Origin: Chytridium lagenaria
Taxonomy: Eukaryota > Chytridiomycota > Chytridiomycetes > Chytridiales > Chytridiaceae
Direction of reading: 5' to 3'
DNA: 64,000 bases
Assembly: GCA_025449115.1 (NCBI GenBank)
Contig: JAHLKC010000001.1
Coordinates: 62,001-126,000 of the forward strand
Part shown: positions 40,954 to 60,332 of the stretch, one piece after another
Position numbering within the stretch: the first letter of the stretch is position 1
Layout: every line of letters starts with the position of its first letter
Made by a program: the position numbers and the translations under genes
The notes under the pieces: model-generated
Seen by the model: the letters and a program-made list of their open reading frames with translations, nothing else
Told to the model about the DNA's origin: nothing
Databases searched by the model: none

Positions 40954-41292
40954 TGTAGGGGTTACGGGGCTCAAATGTTATAAAATATAATGATTTAATA
41001 AAGTGAATTAAACTATAAAATGGTGATGGAGTCTCCAGAGGTGACAGGGAGCTAATGACTATGAAACTTCCATATATTAATGTTAACTTCTTTTCGCAAC
41101 ACATGTAGGAGATGGGATTTACATCAGATCCGTAAATCCCTCCTTTTACGTATCATAAACTAAACATAAAATAATAAAGTTAAGGGATTAACACATCCTC
41201 AAATGGAATGAAGAGTTCAATACAACTGATCAAAGCAAAACTTAAATTAACGCGTAAACAAATAAAGTTCGGGGATAAACAACTTAGACAAA
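40954..41292 (-). repeat. Left (3') LTR of Copia family B, inner end missing
   Basis: Matches the right LTR at 45980-46375 from TGTAGGGG up to AACTTAGACAAA, with scattered substitutions. It then switches to internal sequence. Confidence 0.8.
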
Positions 41293-44200
41293 AATACAGC
41301 TTTCTAACCTTGCAGTTTTAATCAACCACTTTAACCATTCCAAACTTTGCTCGTAATTCTTCAAATTTCGTTCGAGGCAAGGCTTTCGTGAACAAGTCTG
41401 CAGCTTGCTCCTTGGTGTTCAGGTACTAAACGCGAATTTTCTTCGCGTTAATTCGGTCCCGTATAACGTGGAACCTTCTATCCACATGTCGAGAACTCTG
41501 CGAAATTATCGGCGTGCTTGCGAGGGAATTTGCCGTGGTGTTGTCTGTTGGGTTTATTCATCTTTCTATTTTGTTTCACTCACCCACATTCGTTATTTTG
41601 TCTAAGTTATTTTTCCCCCGAACTTTATTTATTTACGCGTTATTTTAAGTTTCGATTTGATCAGTTTTATTGAGCTCCTCATTCCATTTGAGGATGCGTT
41701 AATCCCTAAACTTTATTATTTCATGTTTAGTTTATGATACGTAATTGGAGGGATTTAAGGATCATGAGTTCTGATGTAAATCCCCACCCTCTACACGTAT
41801 TGCGAAAAGTAGTTAACATTAATACATGGAAGTTTCGTAGTAATTACCTCCCTGTCACCCCTGGAGACTCCATCATCATTTTTATAGTTTAATTCTCTTT
41901 ATTAATACATTTCAAAATAATTACAATTGAACTCCGTACCCCCTACATTGTCACCGTAAATCACCGGAGGGTCATTAAACGTATAACCCAACTCCCCCAG
42001 AAGTTAGCTGACCCATATCATATGCGACGATGCTTCACTAAGGGAAACACATACAGCCTCGGCAGTAGACTGAGCCGTCGTTGCTTGCTTTTTCGTTCCC
42101 CACACCACAGCTCCCCCGTTCAAAGTGATTACAAAACCATTCGTTGACTTCATGTCGTCCGGATCAGTTCCCATGTCGGCATCTGCATATCCCACCAATT
42201 CCAGCTTATCCTTTCGAGTATACTGAATTCCCAACTGCTTCGTTTGCTGCAAATATCCACACGTTCGGTAAAGCGCATCCCAATGCGCAGGGTAAGAGTT
42301 CTCTTGAAATCTAGCACTTATTCCGAGTGCGAATGCAATATCAGGTCTAGTCCCGATCATCGCATGCATCAAGGATCCAGTGTACTGTCGGTATCCTTGA
42401 TTCTTCTCGTTCGTTTTAGTTATCTGGCCTTCCATGTTCTTCAAACGTTTCTTGACGGCGTCCATTGGGGTATAGTGTAAAAGAGTTTTCGGTAATTCCA
42501 GCTTTTGACCCATCGTTTCAATGTATCTCTGCTGGAACACCACAATCTTCCCTTTTACATGATCATAGCGGCATTGCCACCCCAGGACGTATCGAAAACT
42601 TGGAGCTCTCGTACCTCGGTAACGTCTCATGAACCGTTTTTTCTGATCGGTCTAACTCCTCCTTGCTTGTCGAAGCCTCTATGATATCATCGACATAGAC
42701 TCCCTTCAAGGTAGAGTCCTTGCCGTTTCGCTTGTAGTAAAGACACGGATCCGCCGCGGAGCGAGTAAACTCTTCCTCGTTGACTTGGAATGTGTTTAAG
42801 TCGGTGTTGAAACACATTGGTGCTTGTACGAGTCCGTAGAGGCTCTTCATGCATAGCACACCCAATCTTCTTTCCCTTCGACGACGAATCCTTCTGGTTG
42901 TTCGAATCTATCTCATGATCTTCAAGCTTCCCATTCCAAGGAAACCGCAAGCATCACCCTCAGCGTCGCTTGCTTGATGACAGGTGCGAACTTCTGTCAT
43001 AATTCATGCCTTGTTTTTTGCGAATAACCTTTTGCGACAAATCTAGCTTTGCGTTTGTCGAGTTTCCCAGCTCATCTCGCTTGTTTTGTACACCCATCCT
43101 GATTAAATAATCTTTCGTCCCTTTAGGTCGGGGAACCAACCTCCATGTTCCCATCTCAACCAAACTCTTCATTTCCTCCTCCATCGCTTTCCTCCACTCG
43201 TCCTTCTCCTTCCTACCCATCGCTTCCTGGTAGGTCTTTGGTTCGTCGTCATCTTCTAACGAAGCGGTGTTCGCTGATGGTCTAATCGTCCAGAATTCTC
43301 CAGGCTTCTTCTTGTTCCGTGATGACCTTTGAAGGGATGTCTCGTATGGTTCATCCAGGTCTTCACGGAAGTTCGGAACTCTTCTTCCACCGGATCGACA
43401 AACAGTAGGTGAGTGAGGTTCCTCTCTTTCTTCATCTTCATCGTCTTCGCGATCGGGTGTGTGATAACTAACATTATCATCTCTGTCATCTTCAGAATCT
43501 TCGTCGTTTACCGCCGTATCTACTTCACTTCCACCAGAGCTTGACAAGTCTGTGGAGTAATCCGGTAAGTCTAGGTCGTTTTTCCACTCTTGAACCTCCC
43601 CTTCAAAATTTGATTCTTCCTTCTCTGTTTCTGCCGCCATTACTCCCTCGTTAAAAATTACTGACTTGCTTCTAACCAACTTATTCGTTTGCAAATCCCA
43701 AAGGCGATAGCCCAACGGTTCATACCCCACGAGAGCACACCGTCGTGCGTTAAAATCTCCCTTCTTTCGTTGCTGCTTGGGTATCAAGACGAGCGCCAGG
43801 CAACCCCATCCACGAAGTCTTGACAAGTCAGATTTCACTCCAGCAAATCTCTCAAGTGGCGTTGCATCTTGTTCGTTCGTTCGGGTCGGTGATCGGTTAA
43901 TGAGGTAAGCTGCAGCCATCACGGCTTCACCCCAAAAACGCGTCTCGAGTTTTGAAGAGCTTAACATGCTTTTAGACCTCTCGTTCAAGGTCCTGTTCAT
44001 TCTTTCAGCAACACCGTTCTGTTGCGGTGTGTACCGCATGGTGAAGGTAAGGCGAATCCCATGCTCTAACTTGTTGAATTCGCCGCCGTTGTCTGCCACT
44101 ACTTCAATGAGCTTCCTTTTGATTTTCTTCTCGGCTTCTTCTTTGTAGCTTTGGATGTACTTGAACGACTTATTCTTCTTCTTGCACAGGTAAACGGTAA

Positions 44201-45979: not shown

Positions 45980-46375
45980 TGTAGGGGTTACGGGGCTCAA
46001 ATCTAATTAAATATTATGAATTAAAAAGTGAATTAAACTATAAAATGGTGATGGAGTCTCAAGAGGTGACAGGGAGCTAATGACTATGAAATTTCCATAT
46101 ATTAATGTTAACTTCTTTTCGCAACACACGTAGGAGATGGGGATTTACATCAGAACTCATGATCCGTAAATTCCTCCTTTTACGTATCATAAACTAAACA
46201 TTAAATAATAAAGTTTAGGGATTAACGCATCCTCAAATGGAATGAGGAGCTCAATACAACTGATCAAATCAAAATTTAAACTAACGCGTAAACAAATAAA
46301 GTTTGGGGGAAAACAACTTAGACAAAGTACGAATGTGGGTGAGTAAAACAAAATAGAAAGATGATAAACCCAACA
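45980..46375 (-). repeat. Right (5') LTR of Copia family B
   Basis: 396 bp, TGTAGGGG...CCCAACA on the plus strand, so TGTTGGG...CCCCTACA in the element's own direction. It shares this layout with the solo LTR at 41546-41947. Confidence 0.88.
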
Positions 46376-46955
46376 TATAGTGTCCGTTCTATGTGTACGT
46401 GTTATGAGAGGATATGAACATCTCTCATCTCTCTTAGTTTGACGATAAACTTGTTCAGTGGATGAACAGCAGAATAGACTATGAATGATAAAGTGTTTTG
46501 TTGTATTGGATATGACCAACACGAGAACTTAACACACCAGTTTGCATTCGTTATTATTAGTTTATTAGTTATTCTGTGTAATTACAAGAGCCCTGTAAAC
46601 CCCTACAGAATTATGATGCAGATCACATCAAAAATCGCCAATTCCTCAGGCAGCAGGAAGGGAGGGAAGAGATTATGAAGTTCTTTGGAAAAGTCCACCC
46701 AGGGTGCCGTTGACAACAAAGAAAAGAGCAAGAAGAAGAAAACTAGTGAATAATAAAGAGATGGCCTAGAAGCCTTATATTGTTTAAACAACAAGAGCCT
46801 TATCAATCGTTTCATATCCATATATATATCCATCCTCGCATACATCCCTCCTCCCACCAATCCAGCCCATCCATCCATTGCGTCCATCCGATGTATATCT
46901 CTTGACAACTTACGATATTAGCTGCAGGGGATTCTTGAACTCCCCTCAACCCATA
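46376..46955. other. LTR-like remnant and junction between Copia families B and A
   Basis: 46,590-46,607 ends GAGCCCTGTAAACCCCTACA, an LTR-type terminus similar to the Copia LTR ends here but in plus orientation. The rest of the block has no full match in the window. From 46,608 to the breakpoint at about 46,956 it is unrecognised. Confidence 0.45.
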
Positions 46956-46956
46956 C

Positions 46957-49290
46957 AACGCGATCTCTTACCGCGTGGAATCGAAGATCCACGTGTCGCG
47001 TCCTTGAGATGATGATGGGGTTCTTTGCAATGGCATCTGCTGCCGTGTTATCACACCAAAGCGTTGGTGGATCGTCAAAGGAGTATCCTATCTCCTCCAG
47101 AAGCTGCTTCAACCAGATGAGCTCGGACGATGCCTCACTCAACGCGACATACTCGGCCTCTGCGCTGGAAACAGCTGCTGACACTTGTTTACGCGCACCC
47201 CACATCACAGCTCCTCCATTCAGCATCGCTGAATCCTTCAAGCTTCAACTTGTTCCCTTGACGCAAATAGCTTATGCCCAAGCTACGCGTCAACTGTAAA
47301 TACCCGACTAGATCACGAGCACACTCCCAGTGCTCGTGTCCAGGACGCGCCTGGTAGCGCGCCAGCATTCCAACTGCAAACGCCACGTCAGGACGCGAAT
47401 TGACCATCGCGTACATCAATGAACCGACCACTGTTCGATAGGCTAGTCCCTCCACTTCTTCCAATGGAGTCTCGTTGTCTTCAACGCGTCTGAGACGCGT
47501 TCCTGGCCTTAGCGGAAGCTTCTTGAGATGTCCTTCTGGCACTCGTAGCTTCTTCATCATAGAGATAATATAGGCCTCTTGCTTGATACGCACATGCCTC
47601 TCATGTTGATTGTAACGAACTTGGGTTCCAACCGCGTATCTTGGCTCCCCCTGGCTTGTGACCGTAAACCGACGCTTGAGATCGTCTTGAAACGCGTCTG
47701 CCTCTTCCTGATCAGGACACGCGTGCACCAGGTTGTCAACATAGACAACCAGTAACAATAACCTCTCGCCGTTGCGTCGGTAGTAAAGACATGGATCCGA
47801 GAGCGAACGTGTGAAGCCTATTGAGATGAGGAACTCATCCAACACTTCATTCCATCCAAGAGGTGATTGCTTCAACCCGTACAAGGTCTTCAAGAGAAGA
47901 CAAACCCAGTCTTCCTTCCCAAGAATCACAAAACCCTCTGGTTGCTCGATGTATATCTCCTCCTTGAGATTGCCATTGAGAAAACGCCGTCTTGACGTCG
48001 TATTGGCGTAAGACCATCCCCTCGTGAGCTGCTACCGCGAGTGCTGTCCGAAAGGTCGCCCCTTTCATTATTGGCGCGTAAGTCTCCAAGTAGTCCACGC
48101 CTTCTTTCTGCGAATATCCCTTCGCGACGAATCGAGCTTTTCTCCTTTCCACGGATTCGTTTTCCGTTCGCTTGTAACGGAGCACCCATTCACTCTTGAT
48201 GATGTGCTTGCCCTTTGGTCGAGGCACCAGACGCCACGTCTGATGCTCCAGCAACGACTGGTACTCATCCTGGAGAGCCTTCATCCATTCTTCTGAATCG
48301 ACGCATCCCAACGCGTCCTCAACGGTTGCTGGATCTGTCACGTCCTCGTCACTCATCACGGTAACGGTGTGTGCTGCAGGCTTACGTGGAGCAGGAGCGC
48401 GCTTTCCTGGCGCTTGAGCCTTAAACCATTCTGCGTTTGCTGGCCTCCTCTCTCTCAGGGAATAACGACGAGTGCCTTCCTCTGCTGGTGGTGTTGCTGG
48501 TACCGGGAAACGTGAAACGCTGCGTGTAGCGCGTAGAGGGGTCCTTCTTGGCGAAGTTGGCGCGTCTTCAAACTCTTCTGACGCGTCGCTCTCTTCCTGA
48601 GCATCCTCGACATCATCCTCCAACTCTTCGCTGTCTTCACGGACCTGTGACGCGTCATCTCCATCATCCTCAGAGCTCAATGACTCATCTTCGGAATCCT
48701 CGGAGTCTTCATCGCTCCCCCAAATCCCTGAATCGCTCCCCACCTTGTCCAGCAGCTTCCTGTGTACCTTCCAGGTGGACACGTCTGCGTCGTGTCCTTC
48801 CCAAACGCCAGTTTTCAACTCATCAAAAGCAACAGTCTTACTGCGCACTACTTTCTTCGTGACTGGGTCATAAAGGCGATATCCCATTGCCTCGTATCCC
48901 AAGAAAATGCATTTGCGCTCGTTCTTCTCCATCTTCTTCCGTCGTCCCTTTGGGACGTGCGCATAACATGCGCAACCAAAGATTCGAACGCGTTTCAGGT
49001 TAGGCTTTCTTCACGTGAAGCCTTCCAGAGGTGAAATCCCATCCTTACGAGGAGATCGATTGTACAAGTACGTGGCACACGTAACGGCCTCTCCCCAGAA
49101 TTTGTCGTCGAGACTCGCGTCGCTAAGCATGCACTTTGCCTTCTCAATGAGCGACCGATTCATTCTTTCCGCGACACCGTTCTGCTGAGGCGTGTAGGGC
49201 ATGGTGAACGTGAGCTTGATGCCTTCCTCCAGGCACCAAGCCTCCAGCTGCTTGTTCTTAAAAATCCCCACCGTTATCTGCAACAATCTC
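46957..49290 (-). pseudogene. Copia A minus copy: integrase C-part, RT and RNase H
   Basis: Integrase end (VAERMNRSLIEKAKCML, 49011-49286). Acidic linker and RT (47847-48932 and 47189-47929): WRLVPRPKGKHIIKSEWVLRYK, LRQYDVKTAF, LYGLKQSPLGWNEV, and VVYVDNLVHA at the polymerase site. RNase H: GGAVMWGARKQVSAAVSSAEAEYVALSEASSELIWLKQLL...FHAVRDRV. Frameshift at the A4 run (47981-47984). Confidence 0.9.
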
Positions 49291-51050
49291 CAGGAGATGC
49301 GGCTTTTCTCGAAGCCGTTCCATCTCCTCAGGGTTCCTTTCCAAGTATCTCAACGCGTCAATCTGTCGACCTGTGAGTGCCTCGGCCTCTCTCTTGTACT
49401 GCTTGATGTACTGAACCGCTTGCTTCTTTTCCTTGAGCATGTACGTGTTGCAGTAACCCGTCGACGTGTCCACAACCACCATGAAGTAACGCGACCCTCC
49501 CAAGCTCTTCCGCTTATGGGTCCCGCCAAATCCACGTGAACGCGTTCCGGGACTTGTAGTCCTTCTCAACTCTCTCCTGGTGAGAGGAGCGCGTAAGCTT
49601 CCAATCAATGCATCCCTTGCAAAGCACATCGTCGTCGTCGTTATACAACGTGATCGGTACACCCGTTTCCGATTTTTCAAGCTTCTTCACCGCCTTCATC
49701 GAGATGTGACCCATCCGTCGATGCCAAATCTGCGCGCTGTTCAGCGACTGGCTTTTCACACCCATCGTGGGGTTTGCTGCGGTGTCTGGCTGCACCAGAT
49801 ACAATAGGCTGTCCTCAACCTTGAACTCTGCCGTCACGTCGTTCGATCCGACGTGTCTGAGGCGATACTTGCCGCTGGATGACTCCAAAACAACGCCACG
49901 CGACGCTGCTGCACCCAGGGAGATGAGATTACGCGTGAGCTCCGGCACATAGAGTACGTTCTTGAGCGTGATCGTTTGCGTGGCCTTCCCGACCTTGATG
50001 CTGAGAGTTAAATCTCCTACCCTCCACGCGTATTCCTTCGCCGTGCTCTGCAGTTTTTACGCGGCTGCTCGCGGCGCGGTAACCCTGCAAACCTTCCTTC
50101 GAGAAGGTCATATGCTGAGTGGCTCCAGAGTCCAGAATCCATCGGTTATCCCGCTTCTCCAGCTTAACCGACAAGGATTCCCCAGCCTCCGCGTCAGACT
50201 GACGCAAAATAGCCATAAAGGCAATTAGACTCGCACGCGCCGTGTTTGCAGACTTCTTCTTGTCCGAGGCACGCTTCTTCCACCGCTTCCCACGATGACG
50301 GTTCCTACCACCACCATCTTTCTCGTTCTCTGAGGTATCATCACTCGACTCCCCCGAGTCTTTCTTCTTCCCAGAGCGACACTTGTTCGCATAGTGTCCT
50401 ATCTTCTTGCACTTAAAACAAGTCTTTGACCTTTTATCTCCACCTTTCGACGCGTCCTTTCCTGCTGGTTTCTTCCCCTTACGCGCTCTTGTCGTAAAGA
50501 AAGCCTCCGCTTCCTCGGATGCCTCAACGCGGTCCTTGATCTTCTCTTCACAGTTGAGAAGTCTGGCGACGACCAGGTTGTAGTCCTTGACCGCTTTGTC
50601 GTCCGTTTCAATGTTGGCAACCGCGACGTCGTAAGCTTCCGGGAGTTTGGTAGTTTGGTGAGCAGGTGAGCAATGTGTTGCTTGTTGGAGACAGCCTCGC
50701 CGGTTGCCTTGAGTTGGTTGACCATTGTCGAAAGTTCAGCAACGAATACGCGTAAAGACGCGTCCTCTTTCATTCTGAGACGAGTGAGCTTGCGCGTGAG
50801 AGCGTTGCGGTTGGGTTCGGATTTACGCTCAAATGATGACACGAGGCACTCCCACGCTTCCTTGGCCGTGAAGTCCTCTCCAATCAAGTGTAAGACCGAA
50901 TCAGTCACTTGAGACTCTATCCGGTTCTTAGCACGATCGTTAGCCGACTGCTCCTTGATCCGCAGATCCTTCTCTTCTTTGGTTGGAGCGTTCTCGTTAA
51001 CGTACGGCGTAAATCGTCTTTCTTTCCCATGTCGTCAGAGAAGTGCTACG
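49291..51050 (-). pseudogene. Copia A minus copy: gag, protease and integrase N-part
   Basis: Gag 50399-50908 (VLHLIGEDFTAKEAWECLVSSF). Zinc knuckle CFKCKKIGHYANKC near 50,370-50,420. Protease RWILDSGATQHMTF (49929-50216). Gag-pre-integrase IWHRRMGHISMKAVKKLE (49514-49948) and SRYFMVVVDTSTGYCNTYML (49258-49680). It carries the same gag and protease frame breaks as the plus copy. Confidence 0.88.
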
Positions 51051-51052
51051 AC

Positions 51053-51592
51053 TGTTGAATACTTGTTGTTTACAGGGCTCAATTAAAACAAAGTTTAACG
51101 CACTTTTGCTCGAACAACGTTCTTAATTTATTTCGACTCAAAACACGAGTCTTTAAATACTCAAACAAAACGAACAAGTAAAGAGGAAAGACAACACAAA
51201 GGGAAACCTATCGGAGACGCGTACACTCACACGTTAAACTCTCCATTACAAAGATAAACAAATCAGAGAACCTTGACGGAACAAAGGGAATAAAGCCTAG
51301 AAGGGAATGTACCTTCACGACGAGATAAGACAGTTTGAGCGAGAGTCCAATCACAAACAGGTAGAGTTATAATTAAACTGGCATAAAGAAAATAAACCAA
51401 TCAAGAAAGGTAAATCAAAGTAGGAAATTCAAATGAGTCCAGAGAATGAATAAGAAGTCCAGTGGGCGACTTTGCGCTCAACTCTAGCGACGCGTAAATT
51501 CCAGAGCACTCTAGTGTTGCGCCCGACGCCCTGGACTAATGGTGCGAGTGATCCTGACGCATCCTCGTGAGTCAAGAGAGCGAAACCCAACA
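51053..51592 (-). repeat. 5' LTR of Copia family A minus copy
   Basis: 540 bp. TGTTGAATACTTG... to ...CGAAACCCAACA on the plus strand. Terminal TG/CA and a TTTAAA-rich core are shared with the plus copy's LTRs. Confidence 0.92.
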
Positions 51593-52385
51593 CATTTAAG
51601 GCGAAAAAAGGCTTGACTTTGATTTTTATTGGAGTATACCGTTATAGGTTAGAGCTTCACTTTTTGTTTGCTCCATCCAACCTTGAAACACTTCTTTGTC
51701 GTCCTTTTGTCACAATCCATTGTACAAACTGCTGACCACACACGCACCCCCACGATTCTTTCATCTGAACCAGATTGCTCTGTATGCGTGAGCACAACCA
51801 AATTACACTACATCCGCATCCACTCCATCATCGCCATCGCTTAACGCTTCCCCAAATCAGTCTGCGCGGCCGCAACACACCCATCCTTGCTACCAACAGT
51901 TAATCCCACTCAACCATCACCGCGCCAGTGGGGAAGGCCTCCAAGATGCTCTCAACAACCACCTCCCCCTCCTTAAGCTCTTAATCATTTTGATGAAGTC
52001 GTCCCACCCTCAACACTGACCTTCTGATCACCTTCGTAAACCGATCCTGCTGCACCATCATTGTCGCCCGCATTTAACTATACTTTACGCGCCGCAACAC
52101 ACCCTCCGCCCCAAAAACGTCAGCAGCAGCAGCAACAATTATCATCATTAGCACCAGCTGCGTCGCTTTCTGTAAACGTCTCACCTCCTAGAACACGCGC
52201 ACCGTCATCCCTTCCACCATCACTGATTAAATCTAACCCATGGATTGTCGTCGCAGCTCCATATCTCGCCCTCATCGCCTCCAACACCTTTCCATCCGTT
52301 CAGGCTATTGCACGGCTGGCACCTGTAGACCCATCCCCACCACCAATTATAACGCAACCTAACGTTTAAGGTGGAATACGGAAGC
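51593..52385. other. 793-bp spacer between the two inverted Copia arms
   Basis: Single-copy DNA between the LTRs. A 102-aa plus frame (52061-52369) with a QQQQQQ run and Pro/Ser-rich content is present, but has no recognisable domain and may be chance. I see no hairpin in this spacer. Confidence 0.55.
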
Positions 52386-52920
52386 TGTTGAGTTTCGCTC
52401 ACTTGACTCACAAGGACGCGTCAGGATCACTCGCACCATTAGTCAGCGGCGTCGGGCGCAACACTAGAGTGCTCTGGAATTTACGCGTTGCTAGAGTTGA
52501 GCGCAAAGTCGCCCACTGGACTTCTTATTCATTCTCTGGACTCATTTGAATTTCCTACTTTGATTTACCTTCTTGATTGGTTTATTTCTTTATGCCAGTT
52601 TAATTATAACTCTACCTGTTTGATTGGACTCTCGCTCAAACTGTCTTATCTCGTCGTGAAGTACATTCCCTTCTAGGCTTTATTCCCTTTGTTCCCGTCA
52701 AGGTTCTCTGATTTGTTTATCTTGTAATGGAGAGTTTAACGTGTGAGTGTACGCGTCTCCGATAGGTTTCCCTTTGTGTTGTCTTTCCTCTTTACTTGTT
52801 CGTTTTGTTTGAGTATTTAAAGACTCGTGTTTTGAGTCGAAATAAATTAAGAACGTTGTTCGAGCAAAAGTGCGTTAAACTTTGTTTTAATTGAGCCCTG
52901 TAAACAACAAGTATTCAACA
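52386..52920 (+). repeat. 5' LTR of Copia family A plus copy
   Basis: 535 bp, TGTTGAG...TATTCAACA. It is nearly identical to the minus copy's LTR except for one-base run-length differences and a diverged first ~100 bp. Confidence 0.92.
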
Positions 52921-54050
52921 GTCGTAGCACTTCTCTGACGACATGGGAAAGAAAGACGATTTACGCCGTACGTTAACGAGAACGCTCCAACCAAAGAAGA
53001 GAAGGATCTGCGGATCAAGGAGCAGTCGGCTAACGATCGTGCTAAGAACCGGATAGAGTCTCAAGTGACTGATTCGGTCTTACACTTGATTGGAGAGGAC
53101 TTCACGGCCAAGGAAGCGTGGGAGTGCCTCGTGTCATCATTTGAGCGTAAATCCGAACCCAACCGCAACGCTCTCACGCGCAAGCTCACTCGTCTCAGAA
53201 TGAAAGAGGACGCGTCTTTACGCGTATTCGTTGCTGAACTTTCGACAATGGTCAACCAACTCAAGGCAACCGGCGAGGCTGTCTCCAACAAGCAACACAT
53301 TGCTCACCTGCTCACCAAACTACCAAACTCCCGGAAGCTTACGACGTCGCGGTTGCCAACATTGAAACGGACGACAAAGCGGTCAAGGACTACAACCTGG
53401 TCGTCGCCAGACTTCTCAACTGTGAAGAGAAGATCAAGGACCGCGTTGAGGCATCCGAGGAAGCGGAGGCTTTCTTTACGACAAGAGCGCGTAAGGGGAA
53501 GAAAACCAGCAGGAAAGGACGCGTCGAAAGGTGGAGATAAAAGGTCAAAGACTTGTTTTAAGTGCAAGAAGATAGGACACTATGCGAACAAGTGTCGCTC
53601 TGGGAAGAAGAAAGACTCGGGGGAGTCGAGTGATGATACCTCAGAGAACGAGAAAGATGGTGGTGGTAGGAACCGTCATCGTGGGAAGCGGTGGAAGAAG
53701 CGTGCCTCGGACAAGAAGAAGTCTGCAAACACGGCGCGTGCGAGTCTAATTGCCTTTATGGCTATTTTGCGTCAGTCTGACGCGGAGGCTGGGGAATCCT
53801 TGTCGGTTAAGCTGGAGAAGCGGGATAACCGATGGATTCTGGACTCTGGAGCCACTCAGCATATGACCTTCTCGAAGGAAGGTTTGCAGGGTTACCGCGC
53901 CGCGAGCAGCCGCGTAAAAACTGCAGAGCACGGCGAAGGAATACGCGTGGAGGGTAGGAGATTTAACTCTCAGCATCAAGGTCGGGAAGGCCACGCAAAC
54001 GATCACGCTCAAGAACGTACTCTATGTGCCGGAGCTCACGCGTAATCTCA
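52921..54050 (+). pseudogene. Copia A plus copy: gag and protease
   Basis: An ATG at 52,942 gives only MGKKDDLRR before the frame moves to RFTPYVNENAPTKEEKDLR. Gag from 53065: VLHLIGEDFTAKEAWECL. An 8-bp tandem duplication (ACCAAACT twice, about 53,312-53,327) shifts the frame away from LTKLPEAYDVAVANIETDDK. Zinc knuckle CFKCKKIGHYANKC about 53,558-53,595. Protease RWILDSGATQHMTF about 53,830-53,870. Confidence 0.88.
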
Positions 54051-56630
54051 TCTCCCTGGGTGCAGCAGCGTCGCGTGGCGTTGTTTTGGAGTCATCCAGC
54101 GGCAAGTATCGCCTCAGACACGTCGGATCGAACGACGTGACGGCAGAGTTCAAGGTTGAGGACAGCCTATTGTATCTGGTGCAGCCAGACACCGCAGCAA
54201 ACCCCACGATGGGTGTGAAAAGCCAGTCGCTGAACAGCGCGCAGATTTGGCATCGACGGATGGGTCACATCTCGATGAAGGCGGTGAAGAAGCTTGAAAA
54301 ATCGGAAACGGGTGTACCGATCACGTTGTATAACGACGACGACGATGTGCTTTGCAAGGGATGCATTGATTGGAAGCTTACGCGCTCCTCTCACCAGGAG
54401 AGAGTTGAGAAGGACTACAAAGTCCCGGAACGCGTTCACGTGGATTTGGCGGGACCCATAAGCGGAAGAGCTTGGGAGGGTCGCGTTACTTCATGGTGGT
54501 TGTGGACACGTCGACGGGTTACTGCAACACGTACATGCTCAAGGAAAAGAAGCAAGCGGTTCAGTACATCAAGCAGTACAAGAGAGAGGCCGAGGCACTC
54601 ACAGGTCGACAGATTGACGCGTTGAGATACTTGGAAAGGAACCCTGAGGAGATGGAACGGCTTCGAGAAAAGCCGCATCTCCTGGAGATTGTTGCAGATA
54701 ACGGTGGGGATTTTAAGAACAAGCAGCTGGAGGCTTGGTGCCTGGAGGAAGGCATCAAGCTCACGTTCACCATGCCCTACACGCCTCAGCAGAACGGTGT
54801 CGCGGAAAGAATGAATCGGTCGCTCATTGAGAAGGCAAAGTGCATGCTTAGCGACGCGAGTCTCGACGACAAATTCTGGGGAGAGGCCGTTACGTGTGCC
54901 ACGTACTTGTACAATCGATCTCCTCGTAAGGATGGGATTTCACCTCTGGAAGGCTTCACGTGAAGAAAGCCTAACCTGAAACGCGTTCGAATCTTTGGTT
55001 GCGCATGTTATGCGCACGTCCCAAAGGGACGACGGAAGAAGATGGAGAAGAACGAGCGCAAATGCATTTTCTTGGGATACGAGGCAATGGGATATCGCCT
55101 TTATGACCCAGTCACGAAGAAAGTAGTGCGCAGTAAGACTGTTGCTTTTGATGAGTTGAAAACTGGCGTTTGGGAAGGACACGACGCAGACGTGTCCACC
55201 TGGAAGGTACACAGGAAGCTGCTGGACAAGGTGGGGAGCGATTCAGGGATTTGGGGGAGCGATGAAGACTCCGAGGATTCCGAAGATGAGTCATTGAGCT
55301 CTGAGGATGATGGAGATGACGCGTCACAGGTCCGTGAAGACAGCGAAGAGTTGGAGGATGATGTCGAGGATGCTCAGGAAGAGAGCGACGCGTCAGAAGA
55401 GTTTGAAGACGCGCCAACTTCGCCAAGAAGGACCCCTCTACGCGCTACACGCAGCGTTTCACGTTTCCCGGTACCAGCAACACCACCAGCAGAGGAAGGC
55501 ACTCGTCGTTATTCCCTGAGAGAGAGGAGGCCAGCAAACGCAGAATGGTTTAAGGCTCAAGCGCCAGGAAAGCGCGCTCCTGCTCCACGTAAGCCTGCAG
55601 CACACACCGTTACCGTGATGAGTGACGAGGACGTGACAGATCCAGCAACCGTTGAGGACGCGTTGGGATGCGTCGATTCAGAAGAATGGATGAAGGCTCT
55701 CCAGGATGAGTACCAGTCGTTGCTGGAGCATCAGACGTGGCGTCTGGTGCCTCGACCAAAGGGCAAGCACATCATCAAGAGTGAATGGGTGCTCCGTTAC
55801 AAGCGAACGGAAAACGAATCCGTGGAAAGGAGAAAAGCTCGATTCGTCGCGAAGGGATATTCGCAGAAAGAAGGCGTGGACTACTTGGAGACTTCCGCGC
55901 CAATAATGAAAGGGGCGACCTTTCGGACAGCACTCGCGGTAGCAGCTCACGAGGGGATGGTCTTACGCCAATACGACGTCAAGACGGCGTTTCTCAATGG
56001 CAATCTCAAGGAGGAGATATACATCGAGCAACCAGAGGGTTTTGTGATTCTTGGGAAGGAAGACTGGGTTTGTCTTCTCTTGAAGACCTTGTACGGGTTG
56101 AAGCAATCACCTCTTGGATGGAATGAGGTGTTGGATGAGTTCCTCATCTCAATAGGCTTCACACGTTCGCTCTCGGATCCATGTCTTTACTACCGACGCA
56201 ACGGCGAGAGGTTATTGTTACTGGTTGTCTATGTTGACAACCTGGTGCACGCGTGTCCTGATCAGGAAGAGGCAGACGCGTTTCAAGACGATCTCAAGCG
56301 TCGGTTTACGGTCACAAGCCAGGGGGAGCCAAGATATTTGACGATCCACCAACGCTTTGGTGTGATAACACGGCAGCAGAGGCCATTGCAACGAACCCCA
56401 TCATCAGCTCGAGGACGCGACACGTGGATCTTCGGTTCCACGCGGTTAGAGATCGCGTTGCCAAGCGTTTGCTTCCGGTGTAGCACATTGGAACCAAGGA
56501 ACAGCCTGCAGACATGCTTACGAAAGGGCTGGCGCGTAGGGACCTGGAGAGGTGTCGTGAACGCGTGGGGATGGCAGTCGTTGAGGATAACGCGTCAGAG
56601 ATAGGGGAGCCAGAGAAGTCGTGAGTAAAG
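54026..56630 (+). pseudogene. Copia A plus copy: integrase, RT, RNase H remnant
   Basis: Integrase: HVDLAGP (D), VADNGGDF (D), TPQQNGVAERMNR (E) in 54026-54963. RT in 55042-56340: RYSLRERRPANAEWFK linker, WRLVPRPKGKHIIKSEWVLRYK, LRQYDVKTAFLNGNLKEEIYIEQPEGF, LYGLKQSPLGWNEV, and VYVDNLVHA in place of YVDD. After GEPRY the frame is lost. RNase H end HVDLRFHAVRDRV and TKEQPADMLTKGLARRDLERC can be read in another frame up to about 56,620. Confidence 0.9.
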
Positions 56631-56648
56631 TTCACGAAAGGGGGAGAA

Positions 56649-57149
56649 TTTTGGGTTTCGCTCTCTTGACTCACGAGGACGCGTCAGGATCACTCGCACC
56701 ATTAGTCCAGGGCGTCGGGCGCCACACTAGAGTGCTCTGGAATTTACGCGTCGTTAGAGTTGAGCGCGAACGCGCCCACTGGACTTCTCATTTACATCCT
56801 GGACTCATTTGAATTTCCCACTTTGATTTACCTTCCTTGATTGGTTTATTTTCTTTATGCCAGTTTAATTATAATTCTACCTGTTTGTGATTGGACATTC
56901 CCTTCTAGCCTTTACTCTCTTTGTTCCCGTCAAGGCTCTCTGATTTGTTTATCTTTGTAGTGGAGAGTTTAACGCGTTAGTGTACGCGTCTCCGATAGGT
57001 TTACCTTTGTGTTGTCCCTCTTTAGTTGTTCGTTTTGTTTCAGTATTTAAAGACTCGTGTTTTGAGTTGAAATAAATTAAGAACGTTGTTCGAGCAAAGT
57101 GCGTTTAACTTTGTTTTAATTGAGCCCCGTGAACAACAAGTATTCAACA
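56649..57149 (+). repeat. 3' LTR of Copia family A plus copy
   Basis: 501 bp, ends TATTCAACA. Aligns to the 5' LTR but lacks about 35 bp (the CTCAAACTGTCTTATCTCG block) and has more substitutions than the two 5' LTRs have between them. Confidence 0.88.
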
Positions 57150-58725
57150 AAATGTTGTCCACCTGTGAAACTCCACTACATTTCTCTGTGGTTTTTGTGA
57201 TTGGTGGGGGCTGTAAGAAGAACATTACATATGCTGGTTTTTTACCGCCCGTGGATGTCATACAATCCAAGAGTGGGAAAATTTGAAAAGGTAGCCCAGG
57301 GGGGATGCAAAAACCTCACCCAAAAAATATTAATGTACTTTTAATTAGAATGGAATCACTGCCAATCAAATTGACTGTTGCTTACTCCATTCACCAATAT
57401 TGACTTGCCTTCTTCCTGAACCAAGATCAGGACCAGATTGTCTCCTGGCAATCAGGGATGCCTATAAGTCTCCATGCCAAACTACTATGGCAGATTTAAC
57501 ACGACTGCACACTGTTGGTTATATTATGGCCAAGCACAACCACAGTGGAACGTCTGATGTTCACTTTCCTGGAATACTTGTTATATTCATTATATTCATT
57601 ATATCTTTTATGTATATTAAAATACATCCAGTGAAATAGAAGAAAACCTTCAATATTTCACATTAGACTTTTACTAGGTCGTCTGGTTATGGCTGCTTCT
57701 ACATTATTCAACACTCAGGTGTAGTTGTTGAACCCCACTGTTGAAGTATCCATGGGTCTTTAGACTCTCGGGTTATGACTTCAGTTTCAGGACCCTGGAT
57801 ACGCCTGTAGACTCTTACATATGTCAGCATGTGTAAAAACACGAGTCAGATGGTAATAAAAACATGCAGTTATACTATAACATGTGTTAGAAGGTTCTAC
57901 ACAACAAGGCTGTAAGGCTGCAATGCCTCCTGCAGAAAAAACCCCTCTATATCTTGCCTCCAGCGTGAGAAGGCAATGTTTTGACGCCTTTCTGGAAGGA
58001 ATAACTCAATGCATACATGAAAACACCAGAGACTGAACGAAACAAGGAGCTAGAGGAAACAGCACCTCCATGGTCATTATCTGAAGTCAGGTGTTTGGGT
58101 GTACAGGTATACCCACTTTTTCCTGACAATTGCCCACTGTGGTTGGTATGGACAATAGGGTTAATAAAGCTTGACAACAATTTTCCGCGTGCTTATTATT
58201 CACAAACCTTCTTGTTGTTCTCACTTACAAATGAGGACTACACTATTGTTTACTAGTGTTCTGTCCTTAAATGAATTGGGACGTGCTTTGTTGAGTTCTT
58301 TACTGAATTGGGACATGTTTAGTCGCATTGTTTTTCATGTGGTTTGCTTTTATGCTGATGGCTGACAGAGATTAATGCTAAAGGCCATATTATTATAGAC
58401 AAGACATAGCATGGCCATTCTTTAGGTGCTTCACCTGACAACCCTGTCTACAAACATTCAATTATCGCTGATGCCTATACATTAGAAAGTGCCAAACCAT
58501 TGGACTTGCGCTGCAGTATTACATAAGTTCCGGATATGTTGGCATTATTATCCTCTTTAAAAAAGCCGTGCAAATGAGCGTCACAATAGAGTGGAGTGGC
58601 ATTATTTTAAAAATGGTAAAAATTTTGTTATGCGATGAACTCTGTATGGTTAAGTGTGGGCTTTGGCCTTGGAGCTGGAATCAGTAAGTTGCCAAATGAA
58701 ATTGAAAGAGTAAACCGGAGGATCA
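57150..58725. other. Long non-coding region between Copia A and TRMO
   Basis: No supported gene. The largest frames are under 90 aa and have no domain. A block at about 57,440-57,500 resembles one at 38,600-38,670. Confidence 0.5.
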
Positions 58726-58763: not shown

Positions 58764-58767
58764 CTTT

Positions 58768-58958
58768 GAATGGATGGATGGATGAAGGAATGGACTGAAT
58801 GAATGGACTGAATGAATTGAGTGAATGAATGAATGGATTGAATGAATGAATGGATGGATGAATGAATGGATTGAATGAATGAATGGATGGATGAATGAAT
58901 GGATTGAATGAATGAATGGATGGATGAATGAATGGATGGATGAATGAATGAATGAATG
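58768..58958. repeat. ATGA/ATGG tetranucleotide array with a longer periodic unit
   Basis: About 190 bp built from GAAT and GGAT/TGGA four-base units, arranged in repeating ~32-bp blocks of the type GAATGGATTGAATGAATGAA. It runs straight into the first exon of TRMO. Confidence 0.9.
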
Positions 58959-60332
58959 AATCAATACGCTGTCTATTCTATGTGTTTAATCGTAACTCTA
59001 CTGCTTTTTTTATCCAATACAGCTCTTCTTGTACTGCGCATACAATCTAATCATGCCGTTGATAAAGCAAAAAATGAAAACGATCTGCATAAGCATTGCA
59101 AGCAAAAGATCTATGCAGAGCGTTCTGGGAGAATAGCTGCAGAGAAGACCATCCGTCAACAGGTACTACTAAGCATTATTCGTATTGACGTAGCTCATTT
59201 CTTAAGGTAGTCAGTGCAATGTGTCAGCCCGAAGTTGGGTTTCCAGCATTAACTATTGGATTTGTGCAATCTCCATACATTGGAAAGCGGGGAACCCCAA
59301 GGTAACCAAAGCTCGCTACATTAACAATCAATATTATCAATTAACACAATCTAATTTGTGCATTAGGCAAGGCATGCTTGTGTCTGAAAGCAGAGGTTTT
59401 ATTCAACTTCATCCTGAGATTCCTATCGATGCATTACAGGGCCTTGATGGGTATATCTTATCTTTATTTGCCATCTAAATAACCACGATATGAAAAGATA
59501 CTCCCATGTTTTCGTTTCCTTCGTCTTTCACGAAAACACAAATCTGCCAAAGATGCTGTCGAGGTCTACTCGTCGCGGAGGATCCGAAAAACAAGCACTT
59601 GACGAAAGAAGCAAGTCTTTTCGAACAGCCGGTTTCAGCTCCACCGTGCCACAGTTTGCAGCAAAGGTTTTTCCTCCTCTCATGAATGGAGGCAGCATTG
59701 GCGTCTTTGCAACTCGCTCGCCCCATCATCCCAATCCTTTCGGCTTATCTTTGGTCAAGATTGAGTCTATCGATGTAGCAAATCGCCGGATTGAAATCAG
59801 CGGTCTCGACATGTGTGAAGGAACGCCAATATTGGATTTAAAGCCTTGGAATCCCGCGGATTGTCCTCGATGCTTCCACGGTCTCGTTAATCATGATCGT
59901 CCTCTCACGGATTCGCCCTTTTGCGCAAACGAGGCTTTGGCTACATGCGGTGGTTATTTTAACGTTCGAGTGCCAGAATGGGTCACGGCAGGAGTCACCC
60001 AGGCTTCTCACCTCCCTGTCAGTTTCGATGAAATTGCTTATAATACCCTTATGGAGAACTTGCGGAAGGGAACATTACAATTTTACAAAGCTGGCGATGA
60101 AGAAAGATTGGAGAGAGCGCTGACAAAGATTCTATCGTTAGATATCCGCAGCTTTCATCAAGGCCGCGGAAAGAAACACCTTCCAGAGTCTGACTTAATA
60201 TGCCAGGATGGGTCTCAGCATTATGAGCTGGACTTCGATACATTGAATATAAAATTCATTGTGACGGATAATTTACATATAAATGTCAAGGAGGTGTCAT
60301 TACGAATTGAAGAGAAAAAGAATAAAGAATAA
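58956..60332 (+). CDS. tRNA (adenine37-N6)-methyltransferase TRMO (TsaA-like)
   Basis: Methylates t6A37 to m6t6A in tRNA-Thr in this family (UPF0066/TsaA fold, SAM-dependent). Exon 1 (about 58956-59161) gives an N-terminal membrane anchor (MCLIVTLLLFLSNTALLVL) and a helix rich in K, E and R. Exon 2 gives LTIGFVQSPYIGKRGTPR, then QGMLVSESRGFIQLHPEIPIDALQGLDG. A GT-AG intron (59451-59497, 47 nt) leads to GYSHVFVSFVFHEN. Then come AAKVFPPLMNGGSIGVFATRSPHHPNPFGLSLVKI and GLDMCEGTPILDLKPW, the family's RSP-H-x-PN and D-x-GTP-x-LD-x-KP motifs. The last exon is open to 60332 with a C-terminal extension. No frame break is seen after 59,498. The ATG sits at the end of a tetranucleotide array. An in-frame TGA directly precedes it. 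Confidence 0.9.

Follow-up and report, generated by a model that had tools for sequence, protein, structure and literature searches.

The ~9.5-kb palindrome in this part of the Chytridium lagenaria genome probably goes back to two Copia elements, A and B, that inserted separately and head to head. A would then have been copied in inverted orientation into B and the spacer between them inverted, by way of one homologous switch and one blunt join. We hold this reading with moderate confidence. Comparison of the two copies with their relatives establishes, as far as sequence can, two separate insertions, an A-type core in the right copy, a mosaic left LTR, a target-site duplication matched across the inversion and a joint without shared bases. 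We infer, in addition, that both joints come from one repair event and that the assembled orientation of the spacer is the real one.

Two Copia copies arranged head to head

The window analysed here is the whole stretch of 64,000 nucleotides (G000:C1:62001-126000), taken from a genome of 41.9 Mb in 356 contigs. Self-comparison matched the left arm (47637-51592) to 52386-56336, read as its reverse complement, at 99.5% across 3,960 columns; the outer pieces, 46956-47079 and 56337-56460, match at 95.2% over 124 bp. An unduplicated spacer of 793 bp lies between the arms, and 557 bp of the left arm (47080-47636) are absent from the right arm. The inverted repeat, its spacer and the right-arm gap were all placed correctly in the initial annotation. 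That annotation had also reported the same 8-bp ACCAAACT duplication in both arms; it is present at 50644-50659 and 53314-53329, and in 0/28 other gag pieces.

The palindrome was divided into the following features, of which the element assignments are explained below.

46956-47079, minus strand: outer piece of element A in the left arm, truncated at 46956; 5 private substitutions relative to six copies, 0 of them in the right arm; 6/124 sites differ from the right arm
47080-47636, minus strand: 557-bp stretch of element A that the right arm lacks; 12 further private substitutions
47637-51487, minus strand: A-type core of the left arm from the RT to LTR position 106, the copied tract; 2 substitutions and ~10 short length differences relative to the right arm
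51053-51592, minus strand: left 5' LTR (L5), mosaic
51488-51530, minus strand: homologous switch zone, LTR positions 63-105; B-specific sites end at 62 and A-specific ones start at 106
51531-51592, minus strand: putative B-type tip of the left 5' LTR; AG at 61-62 and T at 16, as in the right 3' LTR
51593-51597, minus strand: AAATG, read in the direction of L5; putative half of B's target-site duplication
51593-52385, no strand: 793-bp spacer, apparently inverted relative to B's insertion
52381-52385, plus strand: GAAGC, flank of A's 5' end; its partner was lost with A's 3' end
52386-52920, plus strand: right 5' LTR (R5)
52386-56336, plus strand: putative copy of A, 5' LTR to RT, inside B; 24/25 A-private substitutions of the RT piece, plus 67 from gag and integrase
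56336-56337, plus strand: blunt joint of the A copy to the B remnant; no shared bases
56337-56648, plus strand: what remains of the outer part of element B; in the first 124 bp, 1-2 sites differ from six copies and 1-5 from ten
56649-57149, plus strand: 3' LTR of element B (R3)
57150-57154, plus strand: AAATG, putative other half of B's target-site duplication

The arms are two Copia copies in opposite orientation, head to head, and both elements are Copia (Ty1/copia) LTR retrotransposons of one family. The right arm contains the domains Retrotran_gag_2, gag_pre-integrs, rve and RVT_2 in that order, and LTRs with TG...CA ends were found together with a 5-bp target-site duplication, as is characteristic of Copia elements. 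The right 3' LTR starts with TT rather than TG. A protein search with the RT part returned distant Copia-type RTs with at most ~50% identity over part of the query (best 120 of 7,993 candidates scored). The left-arm ORF after the RT, a part that is putatively RNase H by its position and the usual gene order, had no Pfam match. Both copies appear non-functional: A, which is old, breaks off at 46956 and has no 3' end, and in the right copy 557 bp are missing at the RT end and past it. The family is numerous, a genome search with the gag region having scored 40 of 113 candidates, two of which were the arms themselves. Because the genome searches score the best candidates only, all copy counts are lower bounds.

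One lineage in the core and two chimeric copies

Differences between the arms are unevenly spread. From LTR position 106 to the RT there are 2 substitutions in 3,851 bp, along with ~10 length differences of one or two bases, 6 of them in the LTR. Elsewhere the arms differ at 8/105 sites in the 5' LTR tip and at 6/124 in the outer piece, or 5-8% outside the tract (Fisher p 8e-12 and 2e-8 for tip and outer piece, respectively, against the tract). The interior tract is far closer between the arms than the homologous sequence on either side of it, and the lineage switches at its edges, the pattern by which gene conversion is recognized.

The arms had 0 substitutions between them in a gag piece (1,300 sites) and in an integrase piece (1,398 sites), compared with 38-50 (28 copies) and 40-60 (25 copies), respectively, between the arms and other copies, and so resemble each other far more than they resemble other family members. 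Substitutions common to both arms and seen in no other copy numbered 37 in gag (28 aligned) and 30 in integrase (25 aligned), 67 in total, counting substitutions only, without gap columns and piece ends. Other copies differ among themselves by a median of 0.5% in gag and 1.1% in integrase. Because the arms combine 0 differences between them with common private substitutions, their core was assigned to one diverged lineage, A. The tract's two substitutions fall one to each arm: at one site it is the left arm, at the other the right, that departs from six other copies. The tract (2/3,851) was also compared with the LTR pairs of ten complete copies (38/5,027; p 1e-7), and by this measure the presumed copying of A into B is recent relative to insertions of the family. 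The ~10 short length differences suggest an imperfect consensus in the arms and count against the explanation that we favour.

The right arm is of lineage A only in part. RT states were compared in 6 copies taken from the genome-search match lists. Relative to these six, private substitutions of the left arm number 25 within 47637-48400, and 24/25 are common to the right arm. Another 5 lie in the left arm's outer 124 bp; the right arm has 0/5 of them and shows the common family state at every one (24/25 vs 0/5, p 4e-5). The right outer piece differs from the six copies at 1-2 sites and from ten copies at 1-5, while the left arm differs from those ten at 4-9. At the resolution of private sites, the switch from A to ordinary family sequence coincides with the 557-bp deletion, and the joint at 56336/56337 has no shared bases. 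Since private-site sharing ends at this joint, the right end, 56337-57149, was assigned to a different element, B.

The two 5' LTRs had been ranked as the closest pair of the three LTRs, and substitution counts bear this out: 8/534 between the two 5' LTRs, 30/500 between left 5' and right 3', and 35/496 between right 5' and right 3'. Site states in the LTRs were then set against 41 oriented copies. AG at LTR positions 61-62 occurs in the left 5' and right 3' LTRs and in 0/41 others, and T at position 16 in the same two LTRs and in 1/41 others; the right 5' LTR has neither. Within positions 1-62 the left 5' and right 3' LTRs still differ at 2 and 32. From position 106 on, both 5' LTRs have a 36-bp insertion, the right one being a base shorter, that is present in 0/41 others, and 20 substitutions are common to both, at which the right 3' LTR has the common state; 9/20 are absent from all 41. 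By these states the left 5' LTR is a mosaic, with a B-type tip (the outermost 62-105 bp) and A-type sequence from position 106. Both copies are chimeric, the left through this LTR and the right through its change of lineage at 56336/56337. The tip of the right 5' LTR is presumably A's own, by continuity. The apparent B-type tip rests on three private positions plus the 5-bp match described below, which limits the best explanation.

Target-site duplications and the origin of the palindrome

Target-site duplications were examined in 10 complete relatives only, picked from the genome-search match lists. With the cut points chosen here, the 5-bp duplication is exact in eight; in one, whose LTR end is altered, it is shifted by 2 bp, and one has a duplication of 4 bp. 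Flanks taken from different elements matched in 0/90 pairs, and the chance of a 5-bp match is ~0.001. At the palindrome, AAATG precedes the left 5' LTR in its own direction and also follows the right 3' LTR, while GAAGC precedes the right 5' LTR. Given the private LTR variants and the AAATG match, the best reading makes the left LTR tip one end of an insertion, B, and the right 3' LTR its other end. On that reading, the assembled sequence has the spacer and both LTR tips reversed relative to their state at B's insertion. A's 3' end and the partner duplication are lost, so only one of the two presumably exchanged duplications, AAATG, can be checked.

The initial annotation had argued that an element already dead was duplicated or spread by gene conversion, rather than that two insertions took place. 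The palindrome represents neither a pair of fresh insertions nor a plain duplication. The first part holds for the 3.85-kb core and fails as a simple duplication, the right outer part being of the other lineage. The second part is contradicted: each 5' LTR begins at its terminal TG and adjoins unduplicated spacer, the right element ends in sequence of a different lineage, and a single AAATG-flanked insertion has its ends in the left 5' LTR tip and the right 3' LTR. Overlooked there were the uneven differences between the arms, the mosaic left 5' LTR and the matched target-site duplication spanning the inversion.

The identity of the core, the B-type left tip and the AAATG pairing are the grounds for proposing that A was copied into B and the spacer stretch inverted. 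Two Copia elements of one family would have inserted apart, head to head at ~0.8 kb, with A on the left (minus strand) and B on the right. A break in or near B would have been repaired with A as an inverted template. The left part of the present sequence would then be A as far as LTR position 63-105, followed by an unbroken inverted copy of B's LTR tip, the spacer, A's LTR tip and A from LTR to RT, and last by a blunt end join that omitted 557 bp and led into the remainder of B. Two joints would suffice, namely an end join and, inside a 43-bp stretch of LTR, a homologous inverted switch; break-induced copying from A with end joining could provide both in one event. That a single replicative repair event made the ~9.5-kb palindrome and flipped its spacer, through the inverted-LTR switch and the blunt join, is a more tentative proposal, to which we give somewhat less than an even chance. 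If true, it would be a one-step route from ordinary pairs of retrotransposon insertions to long near-perfect inverted repeats.

The main rival holds that B was converted by A without crossover, B's break having been repaired by strand annealing and end joining, and that the spacer never moved, the assembler having mis-oriented the 793-bp spacer and LTR tips between the 3.9-kb arms. Such a history would give identical arms and joint, AAATG would simply be B's normal target-site duplication without any inversion, and the clustering of short length differences in the LTRs hints at weak consensus. On the other side, the residual differences and the 557-bp difference mean that the arms were assembled apart, and the C1 contig is continuous over 665 kb with no N in the window. 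We consider this history unlikely, though it deserves to be kept in mind. The caution first raised about assembly survives in this sharper form, a spacer possibly placed the wrong way round between near-identical arms, and not as a hairpin read.

A two-step history, in which B was converted by A and a later natural crossover between the near-identical inverted arms flipped the spacer, would leave an identical final sequence, and both spacer orientations may then coexist in the population. Conversion and occasional inversion are both described for the human Y palindrome P6 (PMC3723533). It needs one event more than a single pass of repair, and we think it improbable; it overlaps the explanation preferred here except in the number of events. 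Single-event and conversion-first models, whether with crossover or with a mis-oriented spacer, would predict the same arms, and sequence alone does not separate them.

A simple inverted duplication of one dead element would account for the 99.5% identity over 3,960 columns. It was rejected as very improbable: the right outer part and 3' LTR are of another lineage, the LTR tips differ at 8/105 sites, the spacer borders are exact LTR ends, and AAATG pairs L5 with R3. Long inverted repeats are a known class of artefact, and a hairpin (missed adapter) or collapsed repeat was considered on that account; a read turning back on itself would not be expected to leave a 793-bp unduplicated spacer, inner arm ends that differ by 8%, a change of lineage or different outer flanks, and this origin was rejected as scarcely credible. 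Autointegration or an inverted cDNA dimer was dropped by reasoning, the spacer having a paralogue elsewhere and not being element sequence.

Known parallels and neighbouring sequence

The locus is a clearly resolved instance of known processes, not of a new kind. When ectopic recombination between transposons has caused an inversion, exchanged target-site duplications and chimeric copies serve as its signature (PMC2775673). The palindrome resembles that case in its opposite copies, an apparently exchanged duplication, chimeric elements and the inverted segment between them. What sets it apart is that LTR retrotransposons are involved, that the inverted segment measures 0.8 kb, that just one duplication is checkable, that ~3.9 kb of one copy is pasted over the other, and that one joint is blunt. 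Human palindrome P6 undergoes conversion over several kilobases and rare inversion (PMC3723533). It shares with the present locus near-identical inverted arms, an unduplicated spacer, multi-kilobase conversion tracts and occasional inversions; its arms are kept alike by repeated conversion, whereas here a single event between two insertions would suffice. In very short inverted repeats of yeast, template switching homogenizes the arms and inverts the spacer jointly, so that one event can do both, as in the REG2 case (PMC8604942). The REG2 arms are 5-16 bp and the spacer 5 bp, whereas here kilobases were apparently copied and one joint is non-homologous.

Near-identical inverted transposon pairs tempt one to read them as recent duplication or assembly error. 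Lineage-private variants together with a 5-bp target-site duplication distinguish two insertions from later copying, and here they also indicate that the assembled spacer orientation differs from the original. Any head-to-head LTR pair can be tested for a duplication common to one inner LTR tip and the outer LTR on the opposite side, and the test would flag real small inversions as well as mis-oriented spacers.

The spacer is a degraded paralogue of C34:253617-254242, to which bases 126-793 align with gaps at 87-93% in three pieces; bases 290-418 are matched instead on C171:49457-49581. The C34 paralogue continues past A's insertion point (GGAAGC). The stretches of C34 and C171 that were compared match the palindrome flanks in a tandem repeat only, so no empty site was found there. 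A search with 57150-58000 gave matches outside the window solely in query bases 242-343, a repeat (best 40 of 148 candidates).

In the right 5' LTR, 52571-52723 contains five deletions of one or two bases in ~150 bp relative to the left 5' LTR, with 0 substitutions. Four of these are comparable to 41 other LTRs and absent from 40 or 41 of them, and the cluster looks like weak consensus sequence. To the right of the palindrome, 58766-58965 is a short tandem repeat array, and a related stretch lies on C171 near the spacer-like piece. Near the left arm, 46535-46607 is a 73-bp sequence that recurs at 86-96% in 32/41 among the matches listed. Further left, 41546-41947 (minus strand) is an LTR of a second family (TGTAGGGG...CCCAACA) with GACAA on either side; it looks like a solo LTR whose 5-bp duplication is intact. 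Two LTRs related to it, 40954-41292 and 45980-46375, are on the plus strand.
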